Source: Amphiura filiformis
Taxonomy: Eukaryota; Echinodermata; Ophiuroidea; Amphilepidida; Amphiuridae
Assembly (NCBI RefSeq): GCF_039555335.1
Contig: NC_092628.1
Coordinates: forward strand, 99,777,893-99,841,892
Length of the DNA stretch: 64,000 nt
Direction: 5' to 3'
Shown: piece after piece, positions 3,001 to 60,000 of the stretch
Layout: every line of letters begins with the position of its first letter
Numbering within the stretch: position 1 is the first letter of the stretch
Translations under genes and position numbers: made by a program
Notes under the pieces: model-generated
Databases searched by the model: none
Seen by the model: only the letters and a program-made list of their open reading frames with translations
Told to the model about the DNA's origin: nothing

Positions 3001-4913
3001 GCTACACCCGATTACCTAATATTATACAAACATATATATCTGTAAGTATTTGAAGGAATTGGAAATGCATAACAAGTAAAAACAATGCACGGAGCTTTGT
3101 AAAACTACTCTATATAAAATGTATTGCTTTTGTATTATTCTTTAACTTTTCCCTATCTATTTTTTTAGTAAATAATGTATTGCTTTGGTGTTTTTTTGGT
3201 GTTTTTTTTACTTTTCCCTTATCCATCTCCGTTGTTTGGCTAGCTCTCCTGTTATAATGTGGAGACTGCTTTACCCGTTGTTCTACTCAAAATGTTTCCA
3301 ATTGCTCACGACTACTTGTAAAGGACATGCGAGTCAATTGGTCATGGCTCATTGTTTGATAACCGGTGACGCTGAATCGTGGGTTGGTAGAAAACATATT
3401 ATTGACAAGTGTATTGACATTCAAAGTTGAAATAATACTAAACAGGAGAAATAAAAAAACGCACGCTATAATACATTTTGCATACGCGTAATAACTAAAT
3501 TGCGCACTTTTTATCGAATACAATTGTTTTTTTATTGAAGTTTAAAGTTACTTATAGATATTGTACCTTCAGGTAGCCAATATTCCTTTCTTCATATGAT
3601 TTACCAATGGAACCCTCTGTTGCCGTATCATACACTGCTGCCGTTTCTGTTATCCATTCTTGAATCTATAAATTGAACAAAAGTTGAAATACCCTTTGAC
3701 ATGTCTATATTTATTAACTCCTTCAAAATGTTACATTTACAATACTAGTATTCTAATGTATAATGACTATAATTTAAAATAGTAGTCAGATAATTGGTTA
3801 TAAAATTGTCCTATGTTTCTCGCAATTTCGTTGTAAATACAAATTTAAAACACAACATTTTATATACACTCCTTACCGTTTCATAAGTATTGTATGCATT
3901 GTAAGCAAAAGTAGAGCTGTTCAACCCTTTCTGTTCTTCATTAATCAACTCTTGCACATTCTTTATCATAACCTTGGTATGAATTCCTTTGTGGGCTAAA
4001 TATGTTGTGATTTTTTTCACGTAGGATGGTGATATCATGATGTCCACTGGTTTTGTTACATTCGATGGCTCTCTCCAGAAACTCAACTGAAAAATAATTC
4101 GTTAAAAGTCTAATAAACAAACAACTTTCACACCATTTTCAATCCCTGTTAAGCATGGGATTTTTGTACGTAGAAGTAGTGATGTAATATGATTAATTAC
4201 CATAGAGATGGGTCTACACTAGTTTTGAATGCATTGTCCTGAACTAGACGTTTACTTGTTCTCTATATTGTACCATTATTAAATAACAGGCAAAGATCAT
4301 ATTCAATCTACATGTATATTAGCACACATAATACAGGTGATGAGTACTACCTACTTGGGCAATATGTTTAAAATTAGAGTAGACCCATCGCCATGGTAAT
4401 TAATCCTGTTGCATCAACACTTCGTGGAATTGAACACGATATCTAGTCTGTTTCACCTACAGTGACACCTCATACCAGGGCCTGACTTTGGTGAATTAAC
4501 AAGTGCCGGCCGGGACGCGTAATTTCTTTCTGCAACCATAATGGGCCGCAATGCGATAACACATAGTACATACATGTAATTATAGGCCTATGAGGCTAGA
4601 TATAACACGAGTTTATTACCATTATTATTTCCTCTTACTTAATAAAATAAAAAGAAATCGATAGAATTAAAATTCTACAACGGTTTACCTGGGGTTCGAA
4701 CCCACAATCTATGTACCCATAGTCTAATGCCTATACGACTGTGCTATGATTCGTTGTGCCAGAAAGGTGTTTGTTTATGATACTTATTAATAACGGAATA
4801 AAGTGCATACACACAATATACTATTACTAGTATATTAGTACTAATAAATACGAATATAATCCTAACCCTAACCCTAACCCTAATCCCTAACCCTAACACT
4901 TACCCTTATCCTA

Positions 4914-12541: not shown

Positions 12542-15278
12542 TGTTTACTACCTGGATGAATGATAATCTTCACAAACCTATGGACATGAACCTTTATTAC
12601 AAAGGAACTAATTTAAATTTAAATGTTAAGAGTGTTTTCAACGTTGATACTTCTTCAAATCCTGATTGTGCAATTTATTTGCAAATGCCAAGTAATTGTA
12701 TTTTCAAATGCGTTTAATAATTATGTTTCTCCAATATGTAGTGAAAATAATAATATGTGCAATAATAGTGTAAATAATTACAGTGACGCAACTAACACTG
12801 TTAACAATACCATCCTTTCATCCCATCAACCATCTCATTGTAAAGTCGCAAGTGATAACAATACAATTTGTGCTGAGTGTACTTGTAAGATAATCCCATC
12901 TCATCAAACCATTTCATGCATTCAATGTTCATTGATGTTTCATAATAACTGTGTCACTGATTATAATAACAATGGCCCATATTGGTGTCAATCACGTTTC
13001 TATAGGACTTGTTGGAATGAACTTCCTTCTAGTAAAGAGCCTTTTATTGATCTCAAATGTGCTCTTGGCAAAGGGCTAAAAATGGCTCACCTTAATGTTC
13101 AGAGTTTAAAAAACAAAGTTGAGTATATTGACATTGTTCTTCATGATAACAATATTGATATGTTGTCACTAAATGAAACTTGGCTTACAAGTGGTATTGA
13201 TAATTCTGAAATTGAAATTGATGGTTATAATTTGTGTAGAATAGACAGGAAAAATGAAAACCATGGGGAAAATGTAATTTACATTAAGGATAATTTAACC
13301 TTTGTTGAAAAAAGCAATCTTCTTATCAATGATGTTGAAGCACTTTGGGTTGAAATATGTCTTCCTCACAGCAAACCCATCTTAGTTGGTACTGTTTATC
13401 GTGTTCCAGATGCTAAAGCTGAATACACTGATAAGATTGATGCTATGTTTCAAAATTGTGTTTCTATGTATGATAATGTAATTGTCTTAGGTGATTTTAA
13501 TCTTGATGTATCTAAGCCTGGTACTGAATCTAGGAAAGTTACTAAATTAGCAAATCACTCCCAATTTACTCAACTAATTAAGGATTACACTCGTATTACA
13601 GAGAAGAGTAAAACAACTACTAGTATTGATCTTGCTTTTGTAACAAGACCAGAAACAATTGTTGCATCTGGTGTTCATAGTCTGGGACTTAGTGACCACA
13701 ATCTTATTTATGTTGTTCGAAAGATGAAACAAATTAAGTCTACTCCTAAGGTTACTAAAACCAGATCATATAGGAATTTTAATGAGCAAGAGTTTGTGAA
13801 TACGATCAGTAAGACTAATTGGAACTGTGTACAAAGTATTAATGATGTAAATATAGCCTTAGACATGTGGAAATCAATGTTTAATGATGCCTGTAATATC
13901 CATGCACCTATCAGAGAGAAGCGCATAAAAGGTTCTCAACCTGAATGGATCACCAGTGAATTTCTATCTGTTTGCAAAGATCGCGATTTCTACTATGGTA
14001 AGGCTCATAAGACAAATGATTTGCATGATTGGCAAATGGCAAAAATGTATCGCAATAAAGCAAATAACTTGCGTTACACTCTTAAAAAGATATTTTATAC
14101 TGATTCTATCACAAGTAATGTAGGAAACTCTAAAAAGCTCTGGTCTTCAATTAAGAAATTATTGCCTTCAAAATCTTCTTCAACAATCACAACTGTGAAG
14201 AGTGATACTGATAGCGGGTTGACATCTTCTCTTAAAGAAACTGCTAATGTATTCAATGATTATTTTACCTCAATAGGGGCTACACTTGCTAAAGATTTTG
14301 ATGATGTAAATATTAATAGCAACAGTTTTAATACATGTACTAGTACTTTTAAGTTTAGTTATATTACCCCAGAGTTTGTATATAAGCATATTTGCGATAT
14401 TCCAAACAATACGTCACCTGGTATGGATGATTTTAGTGTCAAGTTGTTGAAGCTAGCTGCACCATACATTTGTCATTCTATAGCATATATTTGTAATCAT
14501 TCTTTAAATACATCTGTTTATCCAACAGACTGGAAGTTGGCTAAAGTCACCCCAATTTTTAAGGCAGGTGATAAATTGGATGTTGGAAATTACAGGCCTA
14601 TTTCTGTCCTGCCTCTCATTTCCAAAATTATTGAAAGAGCTGTTCATAATCAATTATATTCTTATTTAACTTCTATGGGTATTCTGTCAGAGAACCAATC
14701 TGGTTTCCGTAGCAATCACTCAACAGCAGCTACCCTGAATGATGTTCAAGATTTCATTTAAAAAAACATGGATAATGGACAAGCCACCGGTGCAATATTT
14801 CTTGATCTCAAAAAGGCTTTTGATTGTGTTAACCATTCTCTTTTAATTGAAAAACTTAGCAACTATGGTATAAAAGGTACAACACTTGAGTGGTTTGAAT
14901 CTTATCTCAAGCTGTTAACATTAATGCCACATTATCTGATTTTAAAAACATTAATATTGGCATTCCTCAAGGCTCTATTTTAGGCCCGCTTCTTTTTATA
15001 ATATTTGTTAATAGTCTTTCTAATAGTGTTGATTGTAAATGTACTATGTATGCCGATGACACCACATTACTATGTACTGCTAATGACTCTTCTACTCTTC
15101 AATCAAAGCTTCAATGTAATTTATCCAAAATTGTTGACTGGTTCAAGAATAATAATCTTACATTAAACATTCAGAAAACTAAGTTCATGGTGTTCGGCAC
15201 TAGCAGAGTGTTAAAAAACTTTACAGATGTTAGTTTATATTACAATAATAATACTATTGAGCGTGTTGATGTATTTAA

Positions 15279-15641
15279 GGGTAGACGAGGTATTGTTGGT
15301 CGAAACAACCTAAAAGTCGATTTTCATTATCTAGATCAATATATTATTGAAAATTAACACCTTGATGTTTTGAAAAAGTTCATTCTACAAATCATATACT
15401 TTGCAAACTTGCTTAATTTATTGTTGTTAATGAGTTATGTACGTTTTACAAAAGTGTTGTTGTTTCAGCCCTCTTTACAACGTAACTCAAGAACCGCAGC
15501 ACCTATAAAAGTATATCTGTGATATTTTAATTCTTCTATATCGCTATATGAATTGAGCAATGCAGTTTTTGCCAAAGCTCACTAACATTCATAAGATGCT
15601 GTGAACTACCAAATCACAACAGTTTAAAATAATTAATAACC
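15279..15641. mobile_element. TTAA-flanked insertion within the LINE
   Basis: Splits the RT reading frame after GTATTTAA; the frame resumes at TTAAGTACC with the text expected after VDVFK. TTAA is duplicated at both ends. No coding capacity recognised. Confidence 0.65.
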
Positions 15642-22800: not shown

Positions 22801-25800
22801 ATAATTATCAAGCACGAATCACGTGGTTTTATTTAAAACAAACTCATATTAACCATCAAAACGAATAAAAACAGCCATCTCTCAACACCCGATATTCAAA
22901 ATTCCCGCGCCGAAATTGTCTAGAGCAATGACCTCCCAATAATTCAATGAAGCCTGACGACAAATTAGCACAAATAACCATGACGTCATTGCTCTAGAAA
23001 ATTTCGGCGCGGGAATTTTAAATAGAGCGTGTTGAGAGATTGCTGTTTTTATTCGTTTTTATGGTCAATATGAGTTTGTTTTAAATAACCACGTGATACA
23101 ACGTTGAAATTTCAACCTGATTTCAACTAACCTCTAGGTTGAAATCGGATTGAAATCAGGTTGAAGTCCATCAGGTTGAAGTCCATTTGCAAATACAACG
23201 TGATTTCAACCTGATTTCAACGTCGAAATTTCAACGTGATTTCAACGTCAGGTGTGCCCACTGGGTGATAATTATTTTCCTAACATATAAGACATAATGT
23301 TGTGATTCCCGGACACTTCCTTTAATTGAGCACACCTAAAATACATGTAAATACATAACAAAACGTAAATCCGTGCTTCTTTTAGAATAATTTTACGATT
23401 TTTTGACAATTATCGAAGTTGGATGGCGGTAAAATAAGTCACTGTTTTAACATTTTCGCTTCGGAATTTAATCAGATATATTTTCATGTAAAAGATGGAT
23501 GTTTTTCCCTTCCATGTTTGCAAAAAAAAAGTTAATTTTGATTTTTGCACCCCTACACATACATTATTTAGCACATATCTCAAAACTAGGATTGCCGAGT
23601 TCCGACTGATTTTGCTTGACCGCATCACATACACCTAGATGGACGGATTAATGTCAATACTTACATATTGTATCGTAAATGTTACCATATTCGTATTGTG
23701 TTCCATGTACCTTTTTGAGAGCATCACACGCAGCTTTACCACCAGCGAGCTGTGTCATAGAGAGACAAAGGGGCAATCAAATCAATGAGACTTCAACTTC
23801 CCTACTCAATTTTATTTAAATTAAATTGCGTAAATTAAAATGCGGGACTTTCATGACATATTTGAATGCCTGTTTCAATATACACGGTGTCCCTGTATAT
23901 CGTTAATGCACCTTTGTGTGTTACGGTAGTCTTGAATTAATACATGGTTAGTTACGTTTCATATGGATGACTAACTTGTTTACCAAATAATATTTGTATT
24001 AAGAAATTATAATAAAATGTCTAACCTGTGTGTCATAATTAACAGGCTTTTCATCTGTGTATCCGTATGGCATCAACCACAGCTGAGAATATGAATGATA
24101 ATCAATATAGAGAGCTACACCATCACCACCGCCCAAACTGGATACAAAATCACGAATAGCAGCGATCTCGGGTTCAGAGAAAGGAGCAGTGCCGTGGTAG
24201 GTTTCAGAACATGTGAAATTGCTGGAGCCGATACCTAGGAACACAAGACGGACACTAACAATCTTAAAATATAATCTTATACTTCGGCGTTTACGTGTGT
24301 TTGTTTCCATTGCGACATACATAACGCCAATTTTGTGGCATCGTTACTCGGCTCCGACAAGTTTTTAACCGATAGCGAACCTTAGAGATAGCGGTCCTTA
24401 GAGATAGCGAACCGTAACCCTGAGCATAGGACAAACCGAATTGTGTGCTTATCTTTCGTATCAGACTATGTCTCTCTCTCTCTCTCTCTCTCTCTAGGTG
24501 CCATATCCTAAGACGTTGGCGATCATGTCATGCCACAATTCTCTGTTATAAGCCATCTCCAGAAGCTCTGTCGCTTTATGTTCAGCTCCCCTTTCTTTAA
24601 GCCAGTCTTTCAGATTTGATAACCACATCACTCTCTTCCTGCCTCTGCTCCTTGTTCCTTCTATTCTTCCTGTCAATACTAGGTTCTCGAAACCATCCTT
24701 TCTGAGGATATGACCAAGGAATTTGAGCTGCTTAACTCTGATTTCACGTAACAGCTTCCTGTTCACATTTGCTCTACTTAGGACATCGTCATTAGACACT
24801 TTATCAATCCACGAGATCTTCATCATTCTTCTAAGGAACCACATCTCGCAGCTCTCCAATCTTCTTTTAATGTCTGTTGTTATTGACCATGCTTCACTTC
24901 CATACATTAATACAGGGACGACATAGCAGTTGAGTACCCGAATTCTGGTCTCTATACTGAGGGCACTGTTTTTTAGGATCTTGTCTAATTTTGAGAACGC
25001 AGACTTAGCCAGTGCAATCATTCTCTTAACCTCCTTAATACATCTGGCATCTTCTGTGATTAGACTGCCAAGGTAGTTGAATGAGGAAACTTGCTTAATT
25101 CTTTGATCTTTCACCTTCAATATGCATGTTGGGCTTTCAGTCTTTGATACCACCATACATTCTGTCTTCTTGCAATTTAACGATAAACCTTTCCTCTCAC
25201 TTTCCTGAACCACCACATCAAGAAGCCTTTGCAGATCCTCCTCAGACTCAGCTAATAGGGCAGTGTCATCTGCATATCTTATGTTCGTGATGTTATGTCC
25301 ACCTATACCGAGACCATTTTCCTTTTCTAGCTCCCTTAGAATCAGCTCACTGTAATAATTAAAGAGATCTGGTGACATCACACATCCCTGTCTGACTCCT
25401 CTCTTAATGCTTGTATATTCACTACAATCTCCATCCACCCTTATGCACGCTGTTTGGTTCCAATAAAGGTTCTGCAACAGTCGTAGATCCTTTCCATGCA
25501 GATCTAGCTTACCAAGATCTTCAAAAAGCTGATCATGTCTCACCTTGTCAAAGGCTTTTGAGTAGTCAATGAAACACATGAAAACATCCTTCTGCATCTC
25601 TACCGCTCTCTCTGTTATCATTCTCAAGACATAAATCGCATTCCTGGTACCAGCATCTTCTACAAAGCCGAACTGCTCTTTACCAATCTCAGGTTTTATT
25701 CTACTTCTTGCACGGAGTAACAGGATTCTTAGAATTATCTTTGTAACATGGCTCATAAGGCTAATTGTACGGTGTTGTTCACAATCCACAGCGCCAGGTT

Positions 25801-28800
25801 TCTTGGGAAGAGCAATAAAGATTGATTTGCTCAGGTCTTCCGGAAATGTCCCATCATCATACATTCTGTTGATGACTCCTGCCAGTTTATGTAAATTCCT
25901 TATTGCCAGTTTATGTAAATTCCTTATAATTATGTAAATTCCTTATAATTCTAAAATCAACATGTGTCGAAATTTACTTACCACCCCATCCAGTTGCGAA
26001 GTTTCTATTTGGATCAGTTCCCACGCAGAAAGATCCTTCGTTTGGTTTACGCGTCTTCCTCCACAAACGATTCTGCGTAATCAGGATAAAGTAGACCCAC
26101 ATTAAGCATATCAATTATTATGTTACCAAACATTTCAGCACTATAGGATAGTTTATACCTACATATCACATAATTCAATTGCTGCTGGAATTGTATATAT
26201 CTCAAGTACTGTTATTTTGATGTTGCGCTTTGACAATATTTGTTTTGAGCATCATAAATGTGATTTATAGGTTAATGAATGGGTTTTTCTTGTTGAGAGT
26301 GAAATTGCACAAAATAATGCACGCATACTGAGATGTTGCTGTGTCTAATGCACGAGCCCCGAAGAGATTTCGCGAGCAACAAGTAATACGCATTTATTTA
26401 CCTATTTCATACACGAGATAAAAAGCCGTGATTTTTGCTAATTTTATAACAAAATCGTCAGTAAAATGTTGGAAAATACGAGCAAATGTAAATGCATCAA
26501 CCCGCAAGGAAAATGAATCAATCCTACGCGATGCGAACGAGTTCGGAAGTACTGCGTGTAGTACGCAGAGTGCGCGCCCGTGCAATTATACAATATTAAT
26601 GCACTCCGCGTATTTTTCTAACGGCCTTTCTGATTGGCTATGTGGTTCTAAGAGTGTATGAATTATAGGTTAATGAACGCGTATTACTTATTGGAGAGAA
26701 ATTAGACAAAATAATGCACGCGCTGATGTTGATGCGTCTAATGCACGAGCCCCTGAAGGGGGGAGTGCATTAGACGCATCAACATCAGCGCAAGTGCATT
26801 ATTTTGTCTAATTTCTCGAGCAATAAGTAATACAAGTTTATTAATCTATTTCATACACGAGAAGAAAAAAACACGTGATTTTTAGTTTTTTTATATAACA
26901 AATTATCACTAAAAATGTTGGAAAACAGAACCAAATATAAATTCATCAACCCGCCCGAAAAATGAATCAATCCTACGCGACGCGAACGCGCGCGAAACAC
27001 TGCGCGTAGTACGCGGAGTGCAATTAGACACAATCAATGCATGGTTTGGATTTTTCTAACGCTTGCTCTGATTGGTTCTCGCTATCGAAGAGTGTATGAA
27101 TATATATTTCAAACATATTTTATATATGCTATATGACGATGTCCACTATGATGATGCTAATGATTATAGTATTATTGGTGACTTATTCCTTATATTTATT
27201 TTTTTATTCAAGCGTGTTCTCTTTCTCGTTCATCCCGTCTCATTCTTCTTCATTCTTCTTTTTCTGATGATGATCATAATGATACACAAATCATATATTA
27301 CTCACACGTGTCCACGTATAGGCATATCCATCAACATTTAAAACAGGAATGACATAAAAGTCAAATTTCTTCAGCAGGTCCGTGGCCTCAGCACCTCCGT
27401 CAACAAGCTTGTATATAAAACACAACATACATTATTCGAAAAATACTATGTTAGTGTTTGCTTTAATTTTGCTTCAAACTGGTGTCACAAATATACACAT
27501 AATCATAAATGGGAATTATTAAAATTAATGCTAAACTTCACAAGATTTCTAACACCATCACAAAGTGAAGGGATTGTGACTCAGGATTAGATTAGAATTA
27601 GGATAAGGTAAAGATTAGGCTTAGCGATTAATAACGTTAAATACTGGCTCAGATTAGGATTGGTGACAACTTCAACAATCGTAACCAAAACGTTTTTTAA
27701 GTACTACTTCGGTACAAAAAAAACATAGCTAGCTTAAAATCATGTTAAAATTCGTGAAAAATACGATCCACCGGATAGTTACATGTATCAGGCATGAGAA
27801 TGATCATCCATGAAAAAAGATTTTGAAAAAGCCTGAAAAGCGCGTGAAATGAGGCTAAAAAAGCCAAAAACGAGCTGAAATTAAAAGAAAGTGCGGAAAT
27901 TTGGACCACTAAAAAGCAGGAAATCCTGCAAAAGCAGGAAAATTCTCATGCCTGATGTATTCAAATTAAGATTTTACATTTGGCTCGGAACCTTCCAAAG
28001 TCTGCTCTCTAAATTTATAACGATACCATTTATACCTATCACCCACCATATATGGTAACCCGCGACGTCACGATGAAGCAGTGTTAATAGTTGTCTATCT
28101 TTATCATTTTCCTAAAATGTTAAGAATGTCAGATAAATTCCATTCTGATGGCTTTGAATCGTTCGCGATTCCATTTACTAATATATTTTTCTTACGTATT
28201 TGGCCAGATAAAGAACAGTTGCTGGGGAGATCCATTCACGAGCGTGGATGCCTCCATGAATAACAACAGCCTTCTTGTTAGTACCACCTGTGGATATCTA
28301 AAGCAGTTAGAAACAACAAATAGATTAGTAATACTTATTACTGTTAGGCGACGAAAAGGAAAACCCTGTTCTACGGGCCCGACCGACCCAGATTGTGTAC
28401 AAATTGGGAAAAAAATTTCCTGTACAAATGAATACCGACCCAAATTTCGACAATTTCAGGAACTATTTTTTTATTTTTTTTTTTTTTTTCCCAAATTGCA
28501 AATATTTACCGATTTTGGTGATTTTTTGGGGGTCATTTCCAAAAAAAAAAAGCCCGACCGACCGACCCTACTTGAAAGGTCCGTCCGCCCGTAGAACAGG
28601 TTTTCTTTTTTTTCGTCGCCTTATCGTGCTTTGCGCTAACAAATCGGTCATTTTTACAAGCGTTTTAACTGAAAAGCGGGCCATTCAATCATAATACATA
28701 TGTATATGCTTGTGACACATGGTAAGAAGCATTTGACAACCAATTTCCGAACACCTGAACTGAACAAGGTCATTTGACGTAACTGACTCAATCATGTCCC

Positions 28801-31800
28801 ACACCCAGCTACACCCGATTACCTAATATTATACAAACATTATATCTGTAAGTATTTGAAGGAATTGAAAATGCATAACAAGTAAAAACAATGCACGGAG
28901 CTTTGTAAAACTACTCTATATAAAATGTATTGCTTTTGTATTATTCTTTTACTTTTCCCTTATCCATCTCCGTTGTTTGGCTAGCTCTCCTGTTATAATG
29001 TGGAGACTGCTTTACCCGTTGTTCTACTCAAAATGTTTCCAATTGCTCACGACTACTTGGAAAGTACATGCGAGTCAATTGGTCATGGCTCATTGTTTGA
29101 TAACCGGTGACGCTGAATCGTGGGTTGGTAGAAAACACATTATTGACAAGTGTATTGACCCCGGGGGGGGGGGCACTTCGAAAAATGTTGGTGGGTATGC
29201 TCCCCCGGAATTTTGAGGTGGTGGGTCCTTGGGAGCTGATGGAGCTGCGAACAAGTAAAATGGGGACTTTTGGAGCTGCGAACAGTCCAGATGAAGGGTC
29301 TTTCTTGGCTTTCTGGTTGACAATCGCCTGAAATGCCCTTTCAGAGCTGAAATTATCAAAATCAAGGGTCTTTCGGAGCTCTATTTTGGTCAAATATAGG
29401 GGGTCTTTCGGAGCTGCGAAATCCAAAAAGGGGGGTCTTTCCGGGGAAGCATACCCGTATGGTCATTTGTGTTGAGTGCCCCCCCCCCCCCGGGTATTGA
29501 CATTCAAAGTTGAAATAATACTAAACAGGAGAAATACAAACGCACGCTATAATACATTTTGCATACGCGTAATAACTAAATTGCGCACTTTTTATCGAAT
29601 ACAATTGGGTTTTTTTTTATTGAAGTTTAAAGTTACTTATAGATATTGTACCTTCAGGTAGCCAATATTCCTGCCTTTATATGAAGTACCAATGGAACCC
29701 TCTGTTGCCGTATCACACACTGCTGCCGTTTCTGTTATCCATTCTTGAATCTATAAATTGAACATAGAAGTTGAAATACCCTTTGACATGTCTATATTTA
29801 TTAACTCCTTCAAAATGTTACATTTTCAATACTAGTATTCTGATGTATAATGAATATAAATTAATTTACAATAGTAGTCAGATAATTAGTTATAAAATTG
29901 TCCTATGTTTCTCGCAATTTCGTTACAAATTTAAAACACAACATTTTATATACACTCCTTACCGTTTCATAAGTATTGTATGCATTGTAATCAAAAGTAG
30001 AGCTGTTCAACCCTTTCTGTTCTTCATCAATCAACTCTTGCACATTCTTTATCATAACCTTGGTATGAATTCCTTTATGGGCTAAATATGTTGTGATTTT
30101 TTTCACGTAGGATGCTGATATCATGATGTCTACTGGTTTTGTCACGTTCGATGGCTCTCTCCAGAAACTCAACTGAAAAAATAATTCGTCAAAAGTCTAA
30201 TAAACAAGCATTAACCACTTTCATACCACTTTTTTTTTAATCCCTGTTAAGCATTAAAAATTCGCCGTAGAAATAGTGATGTAACAGGATTAATTACCAT
30301 AGAGATGTGTCTACACTAATTTTGAATGTATTGTCCTGCATTAGACGTTTACGTTGTTCCTCTGCATTGTACCCATTATCCCGGGCCATTATCAAATAAC
30401 AGGATAGGGTCATATTCAATCTACGTTAACGCACATAATACATGTGATGAGTACTACCTGCTTATATTATAGTGTAGGGCAATACATCAATTACAGTAGA
30501 CCCATCGCCGTGGTAATTAATCCTGTTACATCGACACTTCGGGGAATTGAACACAATATCTAGACTGTTTCACCTACAGTGACACCTTATGCACATTTAA
30601 TACCCGGGTAACGAGTGTCGGCGTGGACGCTCAATTTCTTCTGCAACCACAATGGGCCGCTGCAACCATAATGTGCCGCAATACCCCTAGGGTTAGGGTT
30701 AGAGTTTAGGGTTAGAGTTAAGGATAGGGTTAGGGTTGGCGTATTGCGTATTGCGTAGTTGCAGAAAATAAATACACGGCCTCGGCGCTTGATTTCCTTT
30801 TTCAACCATATAATGGGCCGCAATATCATACGGGCCGTAATATATTTAGGGTTAGGGTTTATGGTTAGGGTTAGGTTTAGCATTTGGTGGTCCATTATGG
30901 TTGTAGAAGAAAATAAAAACGCGGCCGGGGCATGCACAGTGGCATAGTGTTGATTCAAGATGAAATTAGTGATTTACAATAACACAGTAGCTGAAACAGA
31001 TAATAGTAATATATTAGCATATGCAAAGATACAAAATGATAATATGGAAAGGGATAACCTGGAAGTATAACTAGGAAACCGCAGAGAGACATAAAAGGAT
31101 ATTTTTACAAGTGACGGAAAAGGACACTTTTGATATGACAGGGTGTGGATTCTACATAAATTTTTAGCATGTTTAATGGAATAGTTCACACACTGTTAGA
31201 CTGGCTTGTGAAAATAGTCCACTATGTAGAACACACAACCTTAACAACTAACAGCACAATTTCAATATCTTCAACTTCATCATTCACAAAAGGTTATAAA
31301 AGGTTGTCAGAAAATGTTTAAATGTCGGGTTATATAAATGGTACATTAAGGATAAAACGTTTTCATAACATTTAAAAACATTTTTTGATAATCTACTGCC
31401 CAACAAACACAAAATGTTTTACAGAAAACGTTTAAATGTAGGGTTATATAAAGAGTATAAAAACGTTTTAATAACATTCCAAAGACATTTTTTTCTAAAT
31501 AGAATGTTATTTTGGGGTTGAAAAAATATTTTGCCCAAAATGTTTGCCCCAAAAAATAACGTTTTAAAAACGTTTTCACGACCTTTATATAACCCGACAT
31601 TTAAATGTTATTAAAACGTTTTGAATAAAACATTTTAAGAACATTTATGTGTTTGCTGAGTGCAAATATTTTAACAATGTTATTTAAGTGTTGACAAAAT
31701 ATTTGGCAAAAAACATTTGTGAAAATAGTTTACAATAACATTTTTAAAAACATTAAAAAAATATTGTTGTATATAGTATGTTTTCATATAAAACGTTTTA

Positions 31801-38774: not shown

Positions 38775-41700
38775 TCAGTATTTGGATACGAAGTCGCAGA
38801 TAGCTTTCAAAGCAGCCCAATTCTCTTCACCGCTAGGCTGTATGTATTCTGCTGGTAAAAGGAAACCATATCGGCCCTTGTCTCGGCCCTCGGGACCATA
38901 GCTGAATTGCACTCCTTGTTCTGCGTACATGTAGTCACCGATATCACCAGACACAGGATCTGTATCATAAAATCAAAACAGAATTGTGAAAGCTGAACAC
39001 AGGACACGCATCAACGATTACTTATAGAACAGCTACCAGCTGGTCATATTAGTAAATTGGGTTTTTTTAATCAGTTTATTTCTTTTTATTTTATCGGTGC
39101 AGTCCTGATTTGAGTGTTTTATTTCTCCATTTCCATCAATAAGGAGCATATAGTAAACCCAATGCTTACAAAGTTGCAACAATCTAAAGCAGCTAAAACG
39201 TTAGATTGTATGCTTTGTGTTACGGGATCATGTAAGATGCTAAATTATAAATTTCCAGCCAACTACCTAGTAATTCTACAGCTAGCCCCGTGGTAGTTAG
39301 CACATGAAACTTGAACTGTTTTAACAAATATTGAATGTTTATGAGTACAATGGTAAAAAATAACAAATTAAATAACAAGAATCTGTGTATGAGTTATACA
39401 AAACAATTTTAATACTTACATATTGTATCGTAAATGTTACCATATTCGTATTGTGTTCCATGTACCTTTTTGAGGGCATCACATGCAGCTTTACCACCAG
39501 CGAGCTGTGTCATAAAATGGCATAACGTTTTGTTTAAATATTTATTTGCGGACTTTCATGACTTGTTTGAATTATACTGCCTTGTTGCCATTCTAGCATT
39601 CGCAGGTACGTTTTGTTCCATGCACACAGACAATGTTGATATCTTGTGATTTGCTCGATGAGTCCTATAATGCTAGACACAATCGGACTGTTCCCTTTCA
39701 GAGAAGGTTATACGACCAGACTAGGTCAACGTGATTACAATCAACAATAAATGTTCTTCGCAAAAATGTAACCTCTATGATTGACAAAATGTTTGTTGTC
39801 TGTAATGATTTTTTTCAACAAAAATACTTTAATTTCTCTGATGCCTACTTAAATTGTAAAACAATTCAAATACCCGATGCTGTTACTATAATATTATATC
39901 ATACCATTGCTTCTTTGTATCATGCTGTGCAGTCCCGGGGGGCACATAAAACATTTTGGTGGGTATGTTCCCCCGGAATTTTGAGGTGGTGGGTCTTTGG
40001 GAGCTGATGGTATACCGGTAAAAGGGGGTCTTTTGGAGCTGCGAAGCGGGCTATGAACAAGTAAAGTGGGGACTTTTGGAGCTGCAAACAGTCAAAATCA
40101 ATGGCCTTTCTTGGCTTTTTGATTGAAAATCGCCTGAAAAAACCCAGAAATATGAGGAATAAGCAATTTTAGAGCTGAAATTCTCAAAATCAAGGGTCTT
40201 TCGGAGCTCTATTTTGGTCAAATATAGGGACTCTTTCGGAGCTGCGAAATCAAAAAGGGGGGGGTCTTTCCGACGGAACATACCCGTGTGGTTATTTGTG
40301 TTGAGTACCCCCCCCCCGGGGGGCTGCAGTCTTGACCTTACACATTTTTAAATTCAACTTCTTCTTTTTTCATATATATGTCATGGATGATTAATTTATT
40401 TACAAAATGTTGATTATATACAATATATATATTACAATAAATGTCTAACCTGTGTGTCATAATTAGCAGGCTTTTTATCTGTGTATCCGTATGGCATCAA
40501 CCACAGCTGAGAATATGAATGGTAATCAATAAACAGAGCTACACCATTACCACCGCCCAAACTGGCTATGAAATCACGAATAGCAACGGTCTCAGGTTCA
40601 GAGAAAGGCGCAAGACCTCGGTAGGCTTCAGAACATGGGTATGCGCTAGAGCCCTCACCTGGTAACACAAGCAAACGAACACTTAATGCCAAGTAGAATA
40701 AATCGTCCCTGCCCTCACCGATTTTTGGAGATTTTCAAATATTATTTGCTTCCTTACTTTGTTTCTAATTATTGTTGTGATGAAAAGATATGTTTAGAAG
40801 TTCTTGGGTATTATTTATAAACCCATTGCAAACAGTTTCGTCAAGCTACACCAAAACCTGATCTTGTTATGACAATTTGATTGATAAGGTCGTGTGCAGA
40901 ATCTTGTTAGCTCCAACTTGATACTAAATTTGCTACCAAACACTCTAAATTCACAGAGATTGAATTTGTGCATAGGAGCCCAAGCATGCCAAGGGTCAAG
41001 CAAGCAAAAGTGATACTATTTTCATACAGGAAGAAAACACTATTTTAAATGACGGAATGCTTGCCTTTTGTACGCAGAAAACATATTAAATGAAAACATT
41101 CCAGAAAGCAAGTTACACCCCAGAAATCTAGAAAAACTGGGGCATGAGGCAGACATGCACCCACCATCCAGATGCAGCACCAGTTTTTAGCAATATAAAT
41201 ACAACCAATTTAATTAGCATTACCTATATTTTTCACAATATATGCTAATAGGCCAAACCAAACCAAAATTGTGCATGACAAGTGTCTATCTTTTGTATTT
41301 AAATATATAAATACCCCACAATTCTGCAATCAACCTCACCATCAAAATATTCTTACCACCCCATCCAGTTGCGAAGTTTCTGTTTGGATCAGTTCCATAG
41401 CAGGCGTATCCTTCGTTTGGTTTACGCGTCTTCCTCCACATTCGATCCTGTGTGGTTCCAACAGGGCAATCATTTTATTATATAAGTATGTCTACATTGA
41501 GCAGATAATATTCTATCAACATTTTCAGCACAATATTTACATTTTATTTATAGTATAGTGATTTTTCTTTTTTTTTCTTCTTCCGCGCATTCTTCTTCAT
41601 TCCCCTTTCAACAACTCTTCTTATACTTTTGTACATCCGTGATGAATCCACACTTTAACAGTAAGCGTTCGCGTATGTTACGCGTGAGCGCGTAAAATTC

Positions 41701-44700
41701 GTCATGTCTGGAGTCTGTGTGCGTATCACGCTTACAAGTTGAATTCAGTATTTGGAAGTAGCGGATAAAGATTGCCGTTTTATTCAGTTTTATTGCTGAT
41801 ATCAACAGATGCGTCCGGCGCGTCTGCGTGGTTTACTTCACTCGGGCTGCCCTCGCGAAGTAAACCACGCAGACGACGCGGACGCATCGTTGTTAATCGG
41901 GGATGAACAACGGTGAAACATGATTCTTCTTCTGATGATGATTATAATGATGTACAAATCATGTATTACTCACGTCGGTCCATGAATAGGAGTATCCATC
42001 GACATTTACAACAGGAATAACATAAAAATCAAATTTGTTCAGCAACTCCTTCGCATCAGCACCTCCTTCAACAAGCTTGCATATAAAAGACAACATATAT
42101 CGTTTGAAAAATACAGTACTATTTATAATAGTTTGCTTCTTATGACTTCAATTGTTGGTTATAAGGGTAAGATTAGAATTAGAATAAGGTACATATTTAG
42201 GATTATCAGTTATTTAAAGTAAGAGTTCAGATTAGGGTAGGTCAAATATTGTAACCAAACCATTTTAAAGCACTTTGCAAGAAAACATAGCTATCTTAAT
42301 TATAAAAACGTGTATCATGGTAAAATTATGTTCCATCGCCACAAGTATTTGAATCGAAATTGTAAATCGGGTCTGGATGGAACAAATTCTGCTCTTTGAA
42401 TTTGTAACGATACCACTACCCACCATACGGTATGCAAATTCGACCCACTTCGTCAGGCATTGTCAATATGTCTAGCAAATTTTCGTGGACGATACAGCCA
42501 CGTTTGTATTGTTTTTGTATACTTTTTTTTTTTCATTCCATTCTAATTTTTATAAATATTTTTCTCACATATTTTGCCAGATAAAGTAGAGTTGCTGGGG
42601 TAATCCATTCACGGGCGTGGATGGCTGCTTCAACAACAACAGCTTTCTTGTTTCCTCCTGTGGATATCTAAAACAGAGACAACAACATATAAAATGGACA
42701 ATTAGTGGCATGATCATTGCGGCATAAAAACAATACAATAAAACATATAGTATAACTTATTGCGCATCACGTGTAGAAAAACCATACCCAAACAAAATCA
42801 ATGCTATATTTGACAACCAAATGCCTCAGGTGAAGGTCACTCTCGGGAAAGCTGGACTGAATCAAGTCACGTGATGTAACTGATTCCCCATTTGGATCAT
42901 ATTCGATTTATAACTGCCGATCCTCAATAATTACAAGCCATGCCTAATGTGGTTAGTGAATGTCATTTTGTAATACGCCAAAATCCACCTAAGTTTGAGG
43001 TGCTCAAAGCACAGAAAACAAGTAATTAGCGAATTACAGGAACAAATAACATAATTAAATATTTTTGAAGGAAAAAATAATGATCTAACGGTCCATAAAA
43101 GTGTTTACTAACCATTACAGTTTCGAGTTTGTAATAGATACCTTAATGTAGCCAATATTCCTGCCTTCATATGAAGTACCAAGAGAACCCTCTGTTGCCG
43201 TGATATAAGATGCTGCAGTATCGGTTATCCATTGTTGGATCTATAAATTGTATATAATTATTGAACACAACGTCAAACTGTTATATTTTCAATATTATGA
43301 ACTTCATTTAAACCGGATTAACATCGGATTAACATGTGTATTATATTTCTCGCCATTCCGTTGTAAATACGAATTTAAAAGAGGTATCGTATAAGCCGGG
43401 TCGTAAACACATCTTAGGTACACTCCTTACCGTTTCATAAGAATTGTATTTGTTGTAATCAATAGCCGCAGAGCTGTTCAACCCTTTCTGTTCTTCATCA
43501 ATCAACTCTTGCACATTCTTTATCATAACCTTGGTATGAATTCCTTCGTGAGCTAAATATGTTGCGAGCTTCTTCACGTAGCCTGGTGATATCATGATGT
43601 CTACTGGTTTAGTCACGTTCGAAGGCTCTCTCCAGAAACTATACTGAAAAATAATGCGCCAAAAATCTAGTAGCTTCTAGTAGACAAACATCTAACAGAC
43701 CATTATTTTAATCCCTGTTAAGCCAGTGATATTTATTACAAACATAATATCCTTGCTATTTATCTGTTTCAGCTGTGATGTGCACTGATTAATTTATTTG
43801 ATTATTTAATTTTTTTACAATTTGAAGTTATTTCATGAGAGAGATGAGAGATGCGAACCCCCTTTCAAGTAATAAGATATAAATGGAGGAATCTCGTTTT
43901 CATCGGGGAAAATACAATCATATCTATATTTGGATCTTGGAAATTCCCATATGGCTCAATGTGACAATTTCATTGCCGATGTAGGGAAGTCCAGGCGGAT
44001 GTAATAAAGGAAAAGTGGGAGAGAAAAAAATTGCTGGGGATTTTCCAGTTTTACTACTTTGGTATAAACGGTTAAAGCAATAATGTTCTCGTGGCAGATT
44101 GTTTCACGAGACTGTACTCAGAGCTCTGGACTGTACTGGTGGTAGGCTCTCTAATGTGTTGAATGTCTATGTGCCTTCAAATAAAGGTACCTGTGAACCA
44201 GTCATTTTGCATAGCCATAATACAGCAATAACGAAGGAGATTTTGAGTACACGACTGCCGGATAAGTAGTAGTTATAAATTAGTGTGATTTTCAAAGTAA
44301 AGTGTATACAATCATGTTTGTGTACGTGTAAAATCATTGTAAATCATATTTCGGGGCTCGTGCATTAGACGAATCAACATCACAGCTGACATCAGCGCGC
44401 GTGCATTATTTTGTCTAATTTCTCTCAGAAGTACTGCGCGTTCATTAACCTATAGCCGTGACTACACGTGTACAGTTACTGACTTCCATATATCGGAAAT
44501 ATAAACATTTATTCAAAATTGCTTTTGTACATGTACCAACCTGTCCATCAAACTTCGAACTCTCTAGATTGCTCATTAGATTTCCTAGGATGCTTATCTC
44601 ATGATGAGTTTTGGGGATAACGCGTAAAACCTGGTATCTGTGAAATAACAAATTGATTGATATTAAATAGTCCTTGCAAAATGGATTATAAACACCATTT

Positions 44701-52639: not shown

Positions 52640-53740
52640 CAAGCTTAAGCTATTTAATTAACCCTCGATAGAGAGCAGGGCTTGAAGAATGAGGGAAATT
52701 AAAAACACAAATCGCGAAAGACCGCCAACAACCGCCGCTCAATAGGGATGTCAATCTATATTGCCCCGCAGGGCTACAAAGAACCGCAAACAGCGAAATA
52801 TGGATATCCAACCAGTTTAAAAGACAAATTAGCCACCGATAGAGGCCAGGGCCTGAACAAGTAGGGAAATTAAAACCACAAACCGCGAAGGAACGCCAAA
52901 AACCGCCGCTCACTAGGGATATCCAACTAGATTGGCCCGCAGGGCTACAAAGAACCACAAATCGCGAAATTTGGATATCCAACAAGTTAAAACCACAAAC
53001 TGCGAAAGACAACCAACAACCGCCGCTCAATAGAGACATCCAGCTATATTGCCCCGCAGGGCTTCAAAAACCACATACTGTGAAGTATAGTTATCCAACA
53101 AGCTTAAACTATAAATTAACCCCCGATAGAGGGTAGGGCATAAAGAATGAGGGAAATCAAAACCACAAACCGCGAAAGACCGCCAACAACCGCCGCTTAA
53201 TAGGGAAATCCATCTAGATCTATAAATCTAAATAACTACCGGTATCAACTGCAACATTTGGATATCCAACTAGATTGCCCCGGAGGGCTACAAAGAACCA
53301 CACACCGCGAAGTATAGTTATCCAACAAGCTTAAACTATAAATTAACTCCCGATTGAGGGTAGGGCATGAAGAATGAGGGAAATTGAAACTACAAACCGC
53401 GAAAGACCGCCAACAACCGCCGCTTAATAGGGAAATCCAACTAGATTGCCCCGCAGGGCTACAAAGAACTATCAACCGCGAAATTTGGATAGCCAACTAG
53501 ATTGCCCCGCAGGGCTACAAAGAACCACACACCGCGAAGTATAGTTATCCAACGAGCTTAAACTATAAATTAACTCCCGATAGAGGGTAGGGCATGAAGA
53601 ATGAGGATAAATTAAAACTACAAACCGCGAAAGACCGCCAACAACCGCCGCTTAATAGGGAAACCCAAGGGCTACAAAGAACTATCAACCGCGAAATTTG
53701 GATATCCAACTAGATTCCCCGCAGGGCTACAAAAAACACA
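52640..53740. repeat. Satellite-like tandem array, unit about 200 bp
   Basis: Blocks recur in order: GACCGCCAACAACCGCCGCT, CTAGATTGCCCCGCAGGGC, AAACCGCGAA, TGGATATCCAAC, AAACTATAAATTAAC. Five to six irregular units. Long minus-strand ORFs over it come from the repeat phase, not a gene. Confidence 0.85.
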
Positions 53741-56450: not shown

Positions 56451-56765
56451 CTACTTTTTTGTTAAAACATTATACTGGTTTTTGGGTAAAAGAAAAAAGC
56501 CATAGACGGATTTCATAGAAAAAAATATCCATGGCAATATCAGTACGAACACTAAATGTCTACTTGGTTTGTGACGACGGACTGGCTCTGCCTCACTGTG
56601 TTTGCTCTGCAGGCGAGGGAAATCTTGAAGACACATCGGTAAGTACAGGGTCATCTCTTGAAGAATGTAACAATCTCGTTGGTTCCTTATGGCCTCGTTC
56701 TCCTCAGGGTGAAGAACAACTTGACGAATTGGTAGCAGGTCTAGGGTAATATCTAGCAAGGTCAT
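56451..56765 (-). CDS. Cytokine-like gene exon 7 (helix D2 and C-terminal tail)
   Basis: Acceptor TTTATAG directly before ATG, as in exon 4. Helix D of domain 2 is followed by a basic stretch (RRHKPSRH) and a hydrophobic run (LVFVLILPWIFF), then a TAG stop. The hydrophobic tail has no counterpart in domain 1 and could be a membrane anchor or neutral read-through of former 3' UTR. Confidence 0.7.
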   Translation of the reverse strand: MTLLDITLDLLPIRQVVLHPEENEAIRNQRDCYILQEMTLYLPMCLQDFPRLQSKHSEAEPVRRHKPSRHLVFVLILPWIFFSMKSVYGFFLLPKNQYNVLTKK

Positions 56766-58798
56766 CTATAAATTAGAAAAGAAAGGATAGTGTAAGATAT
56801 TTCATAACAGGTCATATATTTTAGAATTTTATTCTTGGATGCAATCGTCGTCAATCAATCAATTATTCATATATCATTCTTTTTCAGCAAGTATAATCAT
56901 GATAATGAAGATTGTACACGGGGATATTATGACGGTCTTCATTTGGCATTCAGATCATTATCAGCTGAGTTTTAAAATAAGGTATTTGCGTGGATTTTAA
57001 TATCAGTGTTATATCACACACACTCCTGTTCGACGCTGAAAAGGTTTCATCCACACCGTTGGTTATCGTAATAAGAATGTGCTTAATTGAACCGAAAAAC
57101 AGTACTAACATCTGCCACTACAATAGACCATATTTAAAAGGACATTGACCTCCCAATCTTAAGATAAATACTTACCACACTCTCCTCGCGGTTTAAGACT
57201 CTCTGTTTCATCAACTGTATGGTTTCAAAGTCAACGGTGAAATCCTTGGGGCTGGTAGATAATTGTTCATCTACGATAACGTGTCCCATAGCTTCTTTAT
57301 AAATGTGGATGTTTGAGTGATGTATTTTCAGTAGTTGTTCCTCCTGAAATGGGGTAACAATAACCGTGATTAATTGCATTTATACAAAAGTAAATTTCAC
57401 TTTAAAGAATCAAGTTAGTGCGACGGAATGATTTAAAATATCAATGTAAGCTTTCGGATTTCTGATACTCCTTGCATATGTATTACTAGTATGTTAATAT
57501 GTGAATTGTTTAGTGGTCTAATAATCCAATAAATGTATATTGTTTCTGTCCTGTTCATATTTCTGTTTGTGTGGTCTGGGTGCGAGTGTGGGTAGGGGTG
57601 GGCTTGCATATGTGTATTGGTGTGGTTATATGAAAGAACGATTGAAAGCTCAAGATCAAGAGATCAAGAGTTAAAATCGTTCTATATTACCAATACAGAT
57701 GAACTTTCATGCTAAGACTGAAAGCTTTTATAGTTAAGTAATACAAAGTAACTTACTGTCATGTGAATCCTTTGCGCAAGAGAAAGTTAAGATCTATCAG
57801 GTATACCAGGAAGATCGACATTCTGACATATAGCTCCACCATTACGATCCATTTGCTGTAATGAAAAATCCACAAAGTAAAGAATAACAGTGTAATATAT
57901 AATACTTGATACTAAAACAATTTGCATTAATTTTATCATTTGTTTTTCCGTCGATTTTATCTTCTCAACCTAATATTTTACTGAAATGTTTTTTTAAATC
58001 GTTCATGTCAAGTTCTGATAATAACACTTACATATTCTTCCAGGACTTTTCCAGCGTATTTAAACAAAGCTGACGTTTCTTCTATAAGGAGTTCATATTC
58101 CATATATATATCAGACGATGGTGGAGGATTGGTGGTAGGTGGCGTTGGAGTAGCTTCGTGGCTCTTTTGCAATCTGGGAAAGTCTACCAATGGAATTGGA
58201 AGGTACCGGTACATTTCTTGAAGTACGTATAAATCGCGGATGTTTCGTACAGCTTCATTTGGTTCAGGATCAAACAACACTGGTTCGGATGGTGGTGGAA
58301 GGCTTGTGAAGTTCAATTCATACATCTATGGATCAAATTAGTGAAAGGCAATTATTAACCTATTTGATCACTACTGTGGTTACCAAAAACACCAAGGAAT
58401 AATCGTCATTTAGATTATAACATAGATACAAATACACCAGGCACAGAAAGAAACTTGTCAGTTATAGTTATCCTTGCTGTTCAGCAACCTGCAATTTCAA
58501 CGATTTTCAATGGGAACGTATCGTTGCATTGCAAACAAGCACCACGGGCCAATCAATAAAGCACACAATGTAACAGGCACAATTGAATAGTTAAAATTAC
58601 AACTTTTGATTTTGAGATTTGAGGGTTTGGAGGCGCATAACTGACGAGATTCTTTTTGTGACTGGTATAGATGGCGGTGCACAAGAAACGATAGGCGGTT
58701 TATGTAAGTATAATTTGTGTATCAAGAACATGTTAGATGTATACAATAGAGAATTGATCACAATGCTGACCATATATAAGTATGGCCTTCCATTCTTG

Positions 58799-58832
<34 letters not shown>

Positions 58833-58884
58833 CGATCGATTGATTAATTGATTGATTGATCGATCGATTTATTGATTGATCGAT

Positions 58885-58955
<71 letters not shown>

Positions 58956-60000
58956 GTACTTACCAACGCGTCCAATCTGTTAAGAGCAAACTGAGTATAT
59001 TCCATAATATTTTGCATAGCTGGGAGAAAGTTGATCGGATCTGACGAGTTTTTCTCATCCAAATACACTTCTTGTACGGCTCCTTTGAATGCAATAAGAT
59101 TTTGACGATGCACCGAGAGTAGTTCTTCTTCAGTCATGTTGAGTCTCTTCAACAAAGGTAGGTCTGATGCATGTGGAAGACCATCCACTGGCAGTGGAGG
59201 AATTATAATATCCGAATTTCCAAATCGTGTTGCTTTCTGTGAAAATAAAACAAAATGATAAACTTGTGAAAATCACTTCACAAGCAAAAAATGACTAAAA
59301 AAAGTAAGTACAAAATATGTTTTACTTGAAATGCTTGCTGCAAAAAAATAAAAATAAAAATCCATCGTTTAATGTGGACAAATTATTGTTATTTTGCTTG
59401 CCAGAAATAATTCTACTTGTTACTAAAAACGTTTTTAGATGTTCTCCGTAAGTACAAGAACGGATACATACATGAAACTGATGCTGAACCCCAAATCACG
59501 TAAATAATGCTAGAATTGTACTAGAATTGAATACGGACAATGAACTGAACTTAACCAAGAGTTCGTACTTACGTAATCTTCGTAGAGACTGCTTTGTTCC
59601 GTGGAAAGCGTTTGACAAGTAAGAATCAAGAACTCGTACAAATCTTTGATATTGGTCGGCTCAGCTTTCAGATGCCTTTTCCTGTCATTGATGTCACCCA
59701 AAAAACTACTGGATTTGTGGAGCTGAAGCTCTGGGGTTGTGAGTTTGCTGTTCTTGATATTCCGAACTCTGAGGAGCTTTCCCTTGTGAATTGGAAATGC
59801 ATTGCAACTCAACACAATCAGACTGGTAAATAAAACTGTAATTCAAAAAAGAAGTATAAATATCAACAATAATCCAAACAACTTCCAATATACCATAACA
59901 GAGATTTTTTTTTAATTACCAGCATGGTATGAACGCAACACAAAACATGAATTAAACATTTACCTGCAAAGCAGAACATTTTAAACATTTGAGCACTCAT
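56451..60000 (-). CDS. Tandem two-domain IL-6/CNTF-like helical cytokine (with in-frame stop in exon 5)
   Basis: Seven exons (59964-60000, 59573-59835, 58964-59236, 58032-58325, 57757-57855, 57176-57343, 56451-56765) join in phase (1,0,0,0,0,0) into 482 codons. Residues 1-25 are a signal peptide. Domain 1: helix A about 73-100, helices B and C 136-191, helix D 215-246 with the signature DLYVLQEM and DFPRLQ. A Pro/Thr-rich linker (248-262) follows. Domain 2 repeats the plan: helix A 263-289, B-C 323-378, helix D from about 400 (DCYILQEM, DFPRLQ). Helix D resembles the LKVLQEL region of CNTF. N-glycosylation sites NMT (133), NSS (163), NFT (196). An RKR at 64-66 could be a convertase site. Codon 312 is TAA. 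An AATAAA lies 37 bases past the stop (56409-56414). Exon structure is seen; family membership is inferred from pattern and gene architecture. Other four-helix cytokines are the main alternative. Confidence 0.75.
57176..57343 (-). CDS. Cytokine-like gene exon 6 (helices B and C of domain 2)
   Basis: 168 bases, phase 0-0, acceptor CCCATTTCAG, donor GTAAGT. EEQLLKIHHSNIHIYKEAM aligns with EEELLSVHRQNLIAFKGAV of exon 3. No stop in frame, so this part has not visibly decayed. Confidence 0.75.
57757..57855 (-). CDS. Cytokine-like gene exon 5 (A-B loop of domain 2, contains TAA)
   Basis: 99 bases, acceptor TTCATTACAG, donor GTAAGT, phase 0-0. The 33 codons align with the first 35 of exon 3 and end IHMT where exon 3 has LNMT. 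Codon 23 (57787-57789) is TAA, in a position where exon 3 has Asp. Both splice sites look intact. Skipping this exon would keep the reading frame. Confidence 0.65.
58032..58325 (-). CDS. Cytokine-like gene exon 4 (helix D1, linker, helix A2)
   Basis: 294 bases, phase 0 at both ends, donor GTAAGT. It carries helix D of domain 1, a linker rich in Pro and Thr, and then a helix resembling exon 2's helix A (DIYMEYELLIEE against DLYEFLILTC). This single exon physically joins the two domains and is the best evidence that they form one gene. Confidence 0.8.
58800..58955. repeat. (TGAT)n microsatellite at exon 3 donor
   Basis: About 150 bases of TGAT with some ATCG units; on the minus strand it starts nine bases into intron 3 of the cytokine-like gene. 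Confidence 0.95.
58964..59236 (-). CDS. Cytokine-like gene exon 3 (A-B loop, helices B and C of domain 1)
   Basis: 273 bases, phase 0 at both ends, acceptor TTTTCACAG, donor GTAAGT. The first 35 codons match exon 5 and the rest match exon 6, so one exon here corresponds to two in domain 2. Helix B begins NMTEEELL; helix C ends FALNRLDAL. Confidence 0.8.
59573..59835 (-). CDS. Cytokine-like gene exon 2 (rest of signal, pro-region, helix A1)
   Basis: Acceptor with a pyrimidine run ending TTACAG, donor GTAAGT. Encodes the end of the signal peptide, a basic 40-residue segment ending in RKR, then an amphipathic helix (IKDLYEFLILTCQTL) that holds the only cysteine of mature domain 1. Ends ...LYEDY in phase 0, the same ending style as exon 4 (...VLEEY). 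Confidence 0.8.
59964..60000 (-). CDS. Cytokine-like gene exon 1 (signal peptide start)
   Basis: 37 bases, ATG then 12 codons plus one base, ending at a GTAAAT donor. A short first exon with a phase-1 intron inside the signal peptide is what I recall for IL6, CSF3 and LIF. Upstream in-frame codons contain no other ATG before the GTG at 60045, so this start is chosen. The joined signal sequence has a hydrophobic core (residues 9-21) and a likely cleavage after SCNA. Confidence 0.75.

Follow-up and report, generated by a model that had tools for sequence, protein, structure and literature searches.

The question raised by this locus is whether an echinoderm genome encodes a ligand of the IL-6/gp130 family and, if so, whether that ligand is built of two cytokine domains in one chain. 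The stretch analysed (the window) comprises 64,000 nucleotides of the brittle star Amphiura filiformis (contig NC_092628.1, positions 99,777,893 to 99,841,892); the gene lies on its minus strand, from position 60000 down to 56451. A preliminary description, made from the letters alone, had supposed an invertebrate source, correctly. The locus is very probably one of at least two A. filiformis copies of a gene for a secreted tandem long-chain class I cytokine, related to the IL-6 (gp130) family and nearest to CNTF, CLCF1 and IL-11. This reading is argued from the exon anatomy, the domain repeat, a stop-free sister protein (P0001), the domain junction present also in a further protein (P0005), sea-star relatives and a predicted fold. 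As assembled, the window copy itself does not encode domain 2.

The gene was modelled as seven exons. Exon 1 (59964..60000, minus strand, as are all that follow) carries the start methionine and the first 12 residues of the putative signal peptide, ends in a phase-1 donor and is seen in the window alone. Exon 2 (59573..59835) completes the signal peptide, whose end lies near residue 25, and holds helix A of domain 1; exon 3 (58964..59236) the AB loop and helices B and C of domain 1 (93% identity to P0001, 76 residues); exon 4 (58032..58325) the CD loop and helix D of domain 1, the Pro/Thr-rich linker joining the domains (58113..58163; residues about 246–262, from the translation) and helix A of domain 2. 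In domain 2 the AB loop is encoded by exon 5 (57757..57855, 99 nt), with a stop codon inside; helices B and C by exon 6 (57176..57343, identical to the deposited model P0002); the CD loop, helix D, C-terminal tail and stop by exon 7 (56451..56765; 104/104 residues equal to P0002). GT-AG borders were found at all six introns (donor GTAAGT in five, GTAAAT at the first), with phases 1,0,0,0,0,0. The translated model runs from a signal-like start (about residues 1–25) through a charged stretch, domain 1 (about 69–247), the linker and domain 2 (about 263–440) to the tail; the hydrophobic core of the N-terminus spans residues 9–20 (mean hydropathy up to 2.64; hydropathy only, window sequence alone). 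The joins of exons 3–4, 4–5, 5–6 and 6–7 recur in P0001. Seven exons joining in frame had been proposed: the splice sites held and the outer ends agreed with the earlier ones, and the frame is closed by the stop in exon 5, which the earlier description passes over.

The borders in domain 2 fall after residues 29 (helix A, 2–33), 62 (helix B from 63) and 118 (helix C to 121) of the structural model; they are of phase 0 and follow the phase-1 first intron in the signal peptide. The genes of IL-6, IL-11, G-CSF and growth hormone (GH) have phases 1-0-0-0, with exons for the signal start, helix A, the AB loop, helices B and C, and the CD loop with helix D. A literature source stating this layout for class I genes was not found, and the likeness is taken as a lead, not a test. 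Domain 1 is without an intron border between the AB loop and helix B. Two side observations concern the same gene. Intron 3 holds a long GATT-type microsatellite (58800-58955) near the exon 3 donor; the exon 7 tail extends past the C-terminus of P0001, and the part beyond that end (56451-56580, minus strand) is strongly hydrophobic and could be a membrane anchor or sequence that was once untranslated.

The two halves of the protein had been said to align with each other, and they do so at 39% identity, with a BLOSUM62 score of 269, where 2000 shuffles reached 59 at most. Helix A shares 8 of 27 residues between the domains (70 of 100,000 shuffles score as high). Over 112 paired codons the differences are most frequent at the third position (76 vs 54 and 42), and 31 of the 49 identical residues use different codons, a pattern to be expected of coding copies whose protein sequences have been kept similar. 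Two separate adjacent cytokine genes, a reading to which the start of the deposited model P0002 after the stop lends some colour, are very improbable: a single open frame in exon 4 runs from helix D of the first domain across the linker into helix A of the second, both domains are covered by P0001, and P0005 matches exon 4 in content (55% identity, 101 columns), its frame continuing past the same donor. The tandem architecture put forward at the outset is thus found in P0001, and its junction in P0005 as well.

Relatives were collected by protein and profile searches. With domain 1, one match at E ≤ 1 was obtained among 837 candidates, P0001 (A. filiformis, 326 residues); a two-domain profile gave four proteins at E ≤ 10 among 1205 candidates, namely P0002 (A. 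filiformis, 162 residues), P0003 (JGI record, 151 residues), P0004 (Patiria miniata, 155 residues) and P0005 (ENA record, 113 residues); a wider profile gave four among 1405 candidates, P0006 (Acanthaster planci, 157 residues) being new. P0002 consists of the last two codons of exon 5 with exons 6 and 7, which assigns the window to A. filiformis; the models P0003, P0004 and P0006 contain one domain each. No further domain copies were found in the window besides this gene (tblastn with P0001–P0005), and an early profile (A1), run against prokaryote genome contigs and viral contigs, returned 109 and 539 pattern matches, with no relative among them. In a tree of seven domain sequences (132 columns, long branches) P0003 groups with domain 1 (96/99), and the split of the two domains may predate that of these animals. 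Between P0001 and the window, 26 of 326 positions differ, a count that includes the stop and the first residue of P0001. Because this difference exceeds that expected from the published heterozygosity of 3.22% (PMC11310086, available text), P0001 is read as a recent duplicate, though it may instead be a divergent haplotype. Its model starts inside domain 1, without helix A and without the signal peptide.

A fold other than a long-chain four-helix bundle had been set in advance as the refuting outcome, and the test was applied to domain 2 of P0001, folded alone. A confident bundle of this type was predicted (predicted local distance difference test, pLDDT, 91.6), with four long helices, long A-B and C-D connections and up-up-down-down topology; the 50 best PDB matches listed by Foldseek are all long-chain class I cytokine entries. 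For domain 1 the same fold is suggested by its identity to domain 2. Among viral structures the best match was K2 of human herpesvirus 8 (HHV-8), at E 0.12, and none reached E ≤ 1e-3.

A relation to the IL-6 family and to CNTF in particular had been proposed from helix D, and profile-profile comparison bore it out, CNTF/CLCF1 ranking above the other long-chain cytokines. The family profile against CNTF+CLCF1 gave an hhalign probability (Prob) of 93.8 and a score of 51.4 over 142 columns; 300 column shuffles reached at most 19.3 (0/300 as high) and the reversed profile 19.1. The further pairs scored 40.6 (CLCF1+IL-11), 35.1 (CLCF1+CTF1), 34.4 (CNTF+CTF1), 27.1 (IL-11+IL-6), 23.9 (IL-6+G-CSF) and 19.0 (LIF+CNTF), and GH+leptin, LIF+IL-6 and EPO+GH 11.7 to 13.3. 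By hidden Markov model (HMM), CNTF (11.9) and CLCF1 (12.5) each scored above 500 shuffles, and IL-11 (4.7) above its own; CTF1, IL-6, LIF, GH1 and leptin fell inside the shuffle range, and G-CSF and EPO gave no score. When a sea-star row was added to the profile, CLCF1 (E 0.37) was the sole match at E ≤ 10 in the 177,635 PDB sequences; for scale, human CNTF and CLCF1 each miss the other at E ≤ 10 in the same sequences. Sequence comparison thus argues for homology to members of the IL-6/gp130 family.

Several results weigh against the reading as a tandem IL-6-related cytokine. No Pfam family was matched above the cutoff, and the profile search with Pfam models proposed earlier brought no support. 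Against the PDB sequences, domain 1 alone gave five matches and profile A1 gave 20, with no cytokine in either set; with one more row (profile A4) CLCF1 came second (E 1.4), behind a capsid protein (E 1.3). Single-sequence hhalign was weaker (CLCF1 Prob 49.5, CNTF 9.5; for a provisional IL-11 sequence, 17.9). The best Foldseek E for domain 2 was 1.4e-3, none being ≤ 1e-3. The joins of exons 1–2 and 2–3, on which both the signal peptide and the first helix of domain 1 depend, are known from the window alone, and the models P0001, P0004 and P0006 begin in the AB loop region, without a signal peptide. The TAA at codon 23 of exon 5 stands where P0001 has a residue. Finally, the whole of P0001 folded poorly (pLDDT 57.1; predicted template modelling score, pTM, 0.49), with ferritin matches over residues 17-183; the low confidence is ascribed to its domain 1 being without helix A, and the ferritin matches were set aside as belonging to the low-confidence stretch 17-183.

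Those ferritin matches and the weak sequence signal would suit a four-helix protein that resembles cytokines by fold alone, through convergence, for example a ferritin-like bundle. Such an origin is highly unlikely, since no ferritin appears among the 50 listed matches of domain 2 folded alone (pLDDT 91.6), the profile match to CNTF/CLCF1 is colinear, and single-sequence hhalign probabilities with IL-6, LIF, G-CSF, EPO, GH and leptin are low (Prob 0.1–0.4).

The status of the window copy turns on the in-frame TAA (57787..57789, minus strand). Exon 5 is correctly placed all the same, because P0001 has an uninterrupted counterpart of 33 residues and the exon that comes next continues in register. 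As assembled, the window copy encodes a product of 312 residues that breaks off within the AB loop of domain 2, after the signal peptide, domain 1, the linker and the second helix A; the deposited model P0002 starts at a methionine downstream of the stop. The copy yields only domain 1 and the start of domain 2, unless the stop reflects an error of assembly or an allelic variant; either origin is possible because the published A. filiformis genome has, in the available text, the heterozygosity given above and a base error of about 0.07% in its assembly (PMC11310086). This copy probably represents a form that is broken or allelic. That it is a decaying pseudogene, or a broken allele or haplotype, of an intact sister gene and does not work as a tandem ligand is put at even chances: besides the TAA, its C-terminal tail reads on past the end of P0001, but its splice sites and remaining reading frame are intact and 300/326 residues match P0001. 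It could also act as a single-domain ligand, the remainder being dead, for signal peptide and domain 1 are complete ahead of the stop; this is unlikely, as the shortened protein would close with half an AB loop behind a helix A that has no partners, and exons 6 and 7 are still 91-95% identical to the intact copy (tblastn segments).

For the intact tandem protein, the following mode of action is proposed. The protein would be secreted, and each domain would dock a gp130/Domeless-type receptor by way of the customary faces (helices A and C; AB loop with helix D), which would start JAK-STAT signalling. Held by the short proline-rich linker, the covalent dimer would gather more receptor chains than a single domain, and the tandem might bridge two gp130-like receptors.

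The IL-6/gp130 family is defined by the use of gp130-type signalling receptors (PMC13203501, in part), and receptors, JAKs and STATs of the IL-6-type pathway are reported from invertebrates (PMC8226699, PMC13203501), IL6R-type receptors in the sea urchin S. purpuratus among them (PMC13203501). Two surveys, as far as their available text goes, state that invertebrates yielded no member of the IL-6 superfamily (PMC8226699, 2021; PMC13203501, 2026); both relied on BLAST-type thresholds, which ligands as diverged as these would not pass. In the accessible parts of two further papers, JAK-STAT genes are induced during A. filiformis arm regeneration (PMC11310086), and interleukin-6-receptor contigs rise in sea-star wasting disease, no such ligand being named there (PMC4503460). 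Our literature searches found neither a description of this gene family nor a natural tandem class I cytokine. The superfamily is known; the phylum is new to it as far as these searches show. With an echinoderm gene family in hand, the question of the missing ligand can be put to a direct test. A class I cytokine that is naturally tandem would represent a new architecture; we know of no other.

Elsewhere in the window, zinc carboxypeptidase exons (Propep_M14 twice, Peptidase_M14 twice) lie on the minus strand at 3814-4101, 24002-24343, 40435-40734 and 43344-43676, which suggests tandem M14 genes; 29906-30196 resembles them by eye. Reverse-transcriptase frames of non-LTR-type retroelements occupy 12623-15354 (plus strand, with an endonuclease match) and 24497-25942 (minus strand). 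Repeated open-frame segments with recurring peptide motifs, on both strands of 52650-53650, suggest a tandem repeat array.

Among known systems, human CNTF and CLCF1 are gp130/LIFR ligands, from which the brittle-star protein differs in its tandem domains and in the lack of the FXXK motif. This motif, at the start of helix D of CNTF, CLCF1 and LIF, serves LIFR (PMC10022904, available text). In the echinoderm family helix D opens with a highly conserved stretch (NExxRNxRDLYVLQE type), and F or K stands at the aligned sites in none of the six domain sequences (F site: A, A, T, M, L, A; K site: N in 6/6); a LIFR-like mode is therefore unlikely, and the protein is not classed as an orthologue of either CNTF or CLCF1. 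CNTF, moreover, has no signal peptide. All six aligned rows have an aspartate at the position of D201 of CLCF1, a residue tied to the alpha-receptor face, and the whole pattern suggests a receptor pairing peculiar to the echinoderm family. Human IL-11 has one domain, and its sequence link is weaker. The Drosophila ligand of Domeless, Unpaired (Upd3), is an invertebrate JAK-STAT ligand called IL-6-like (PMC7378365, PMC8226699, both in part) and is likened here by description only. In the sea star Asterias forbesi an IL-6-like molecule was reportedly described biochemically by Beck and Habicht in 1996. We tentatively suggest that gp130-family ligands predate vertebrates, a CNTF/CLCF1/IL-11-like ligand having existed in the echinoderm-chordate ancestor; that brittle stars made of it an obligate bivalent covalent tandem clustering two receptor sets; and that sea-star members of the family may underlie the IL-6-like activity of 1996.
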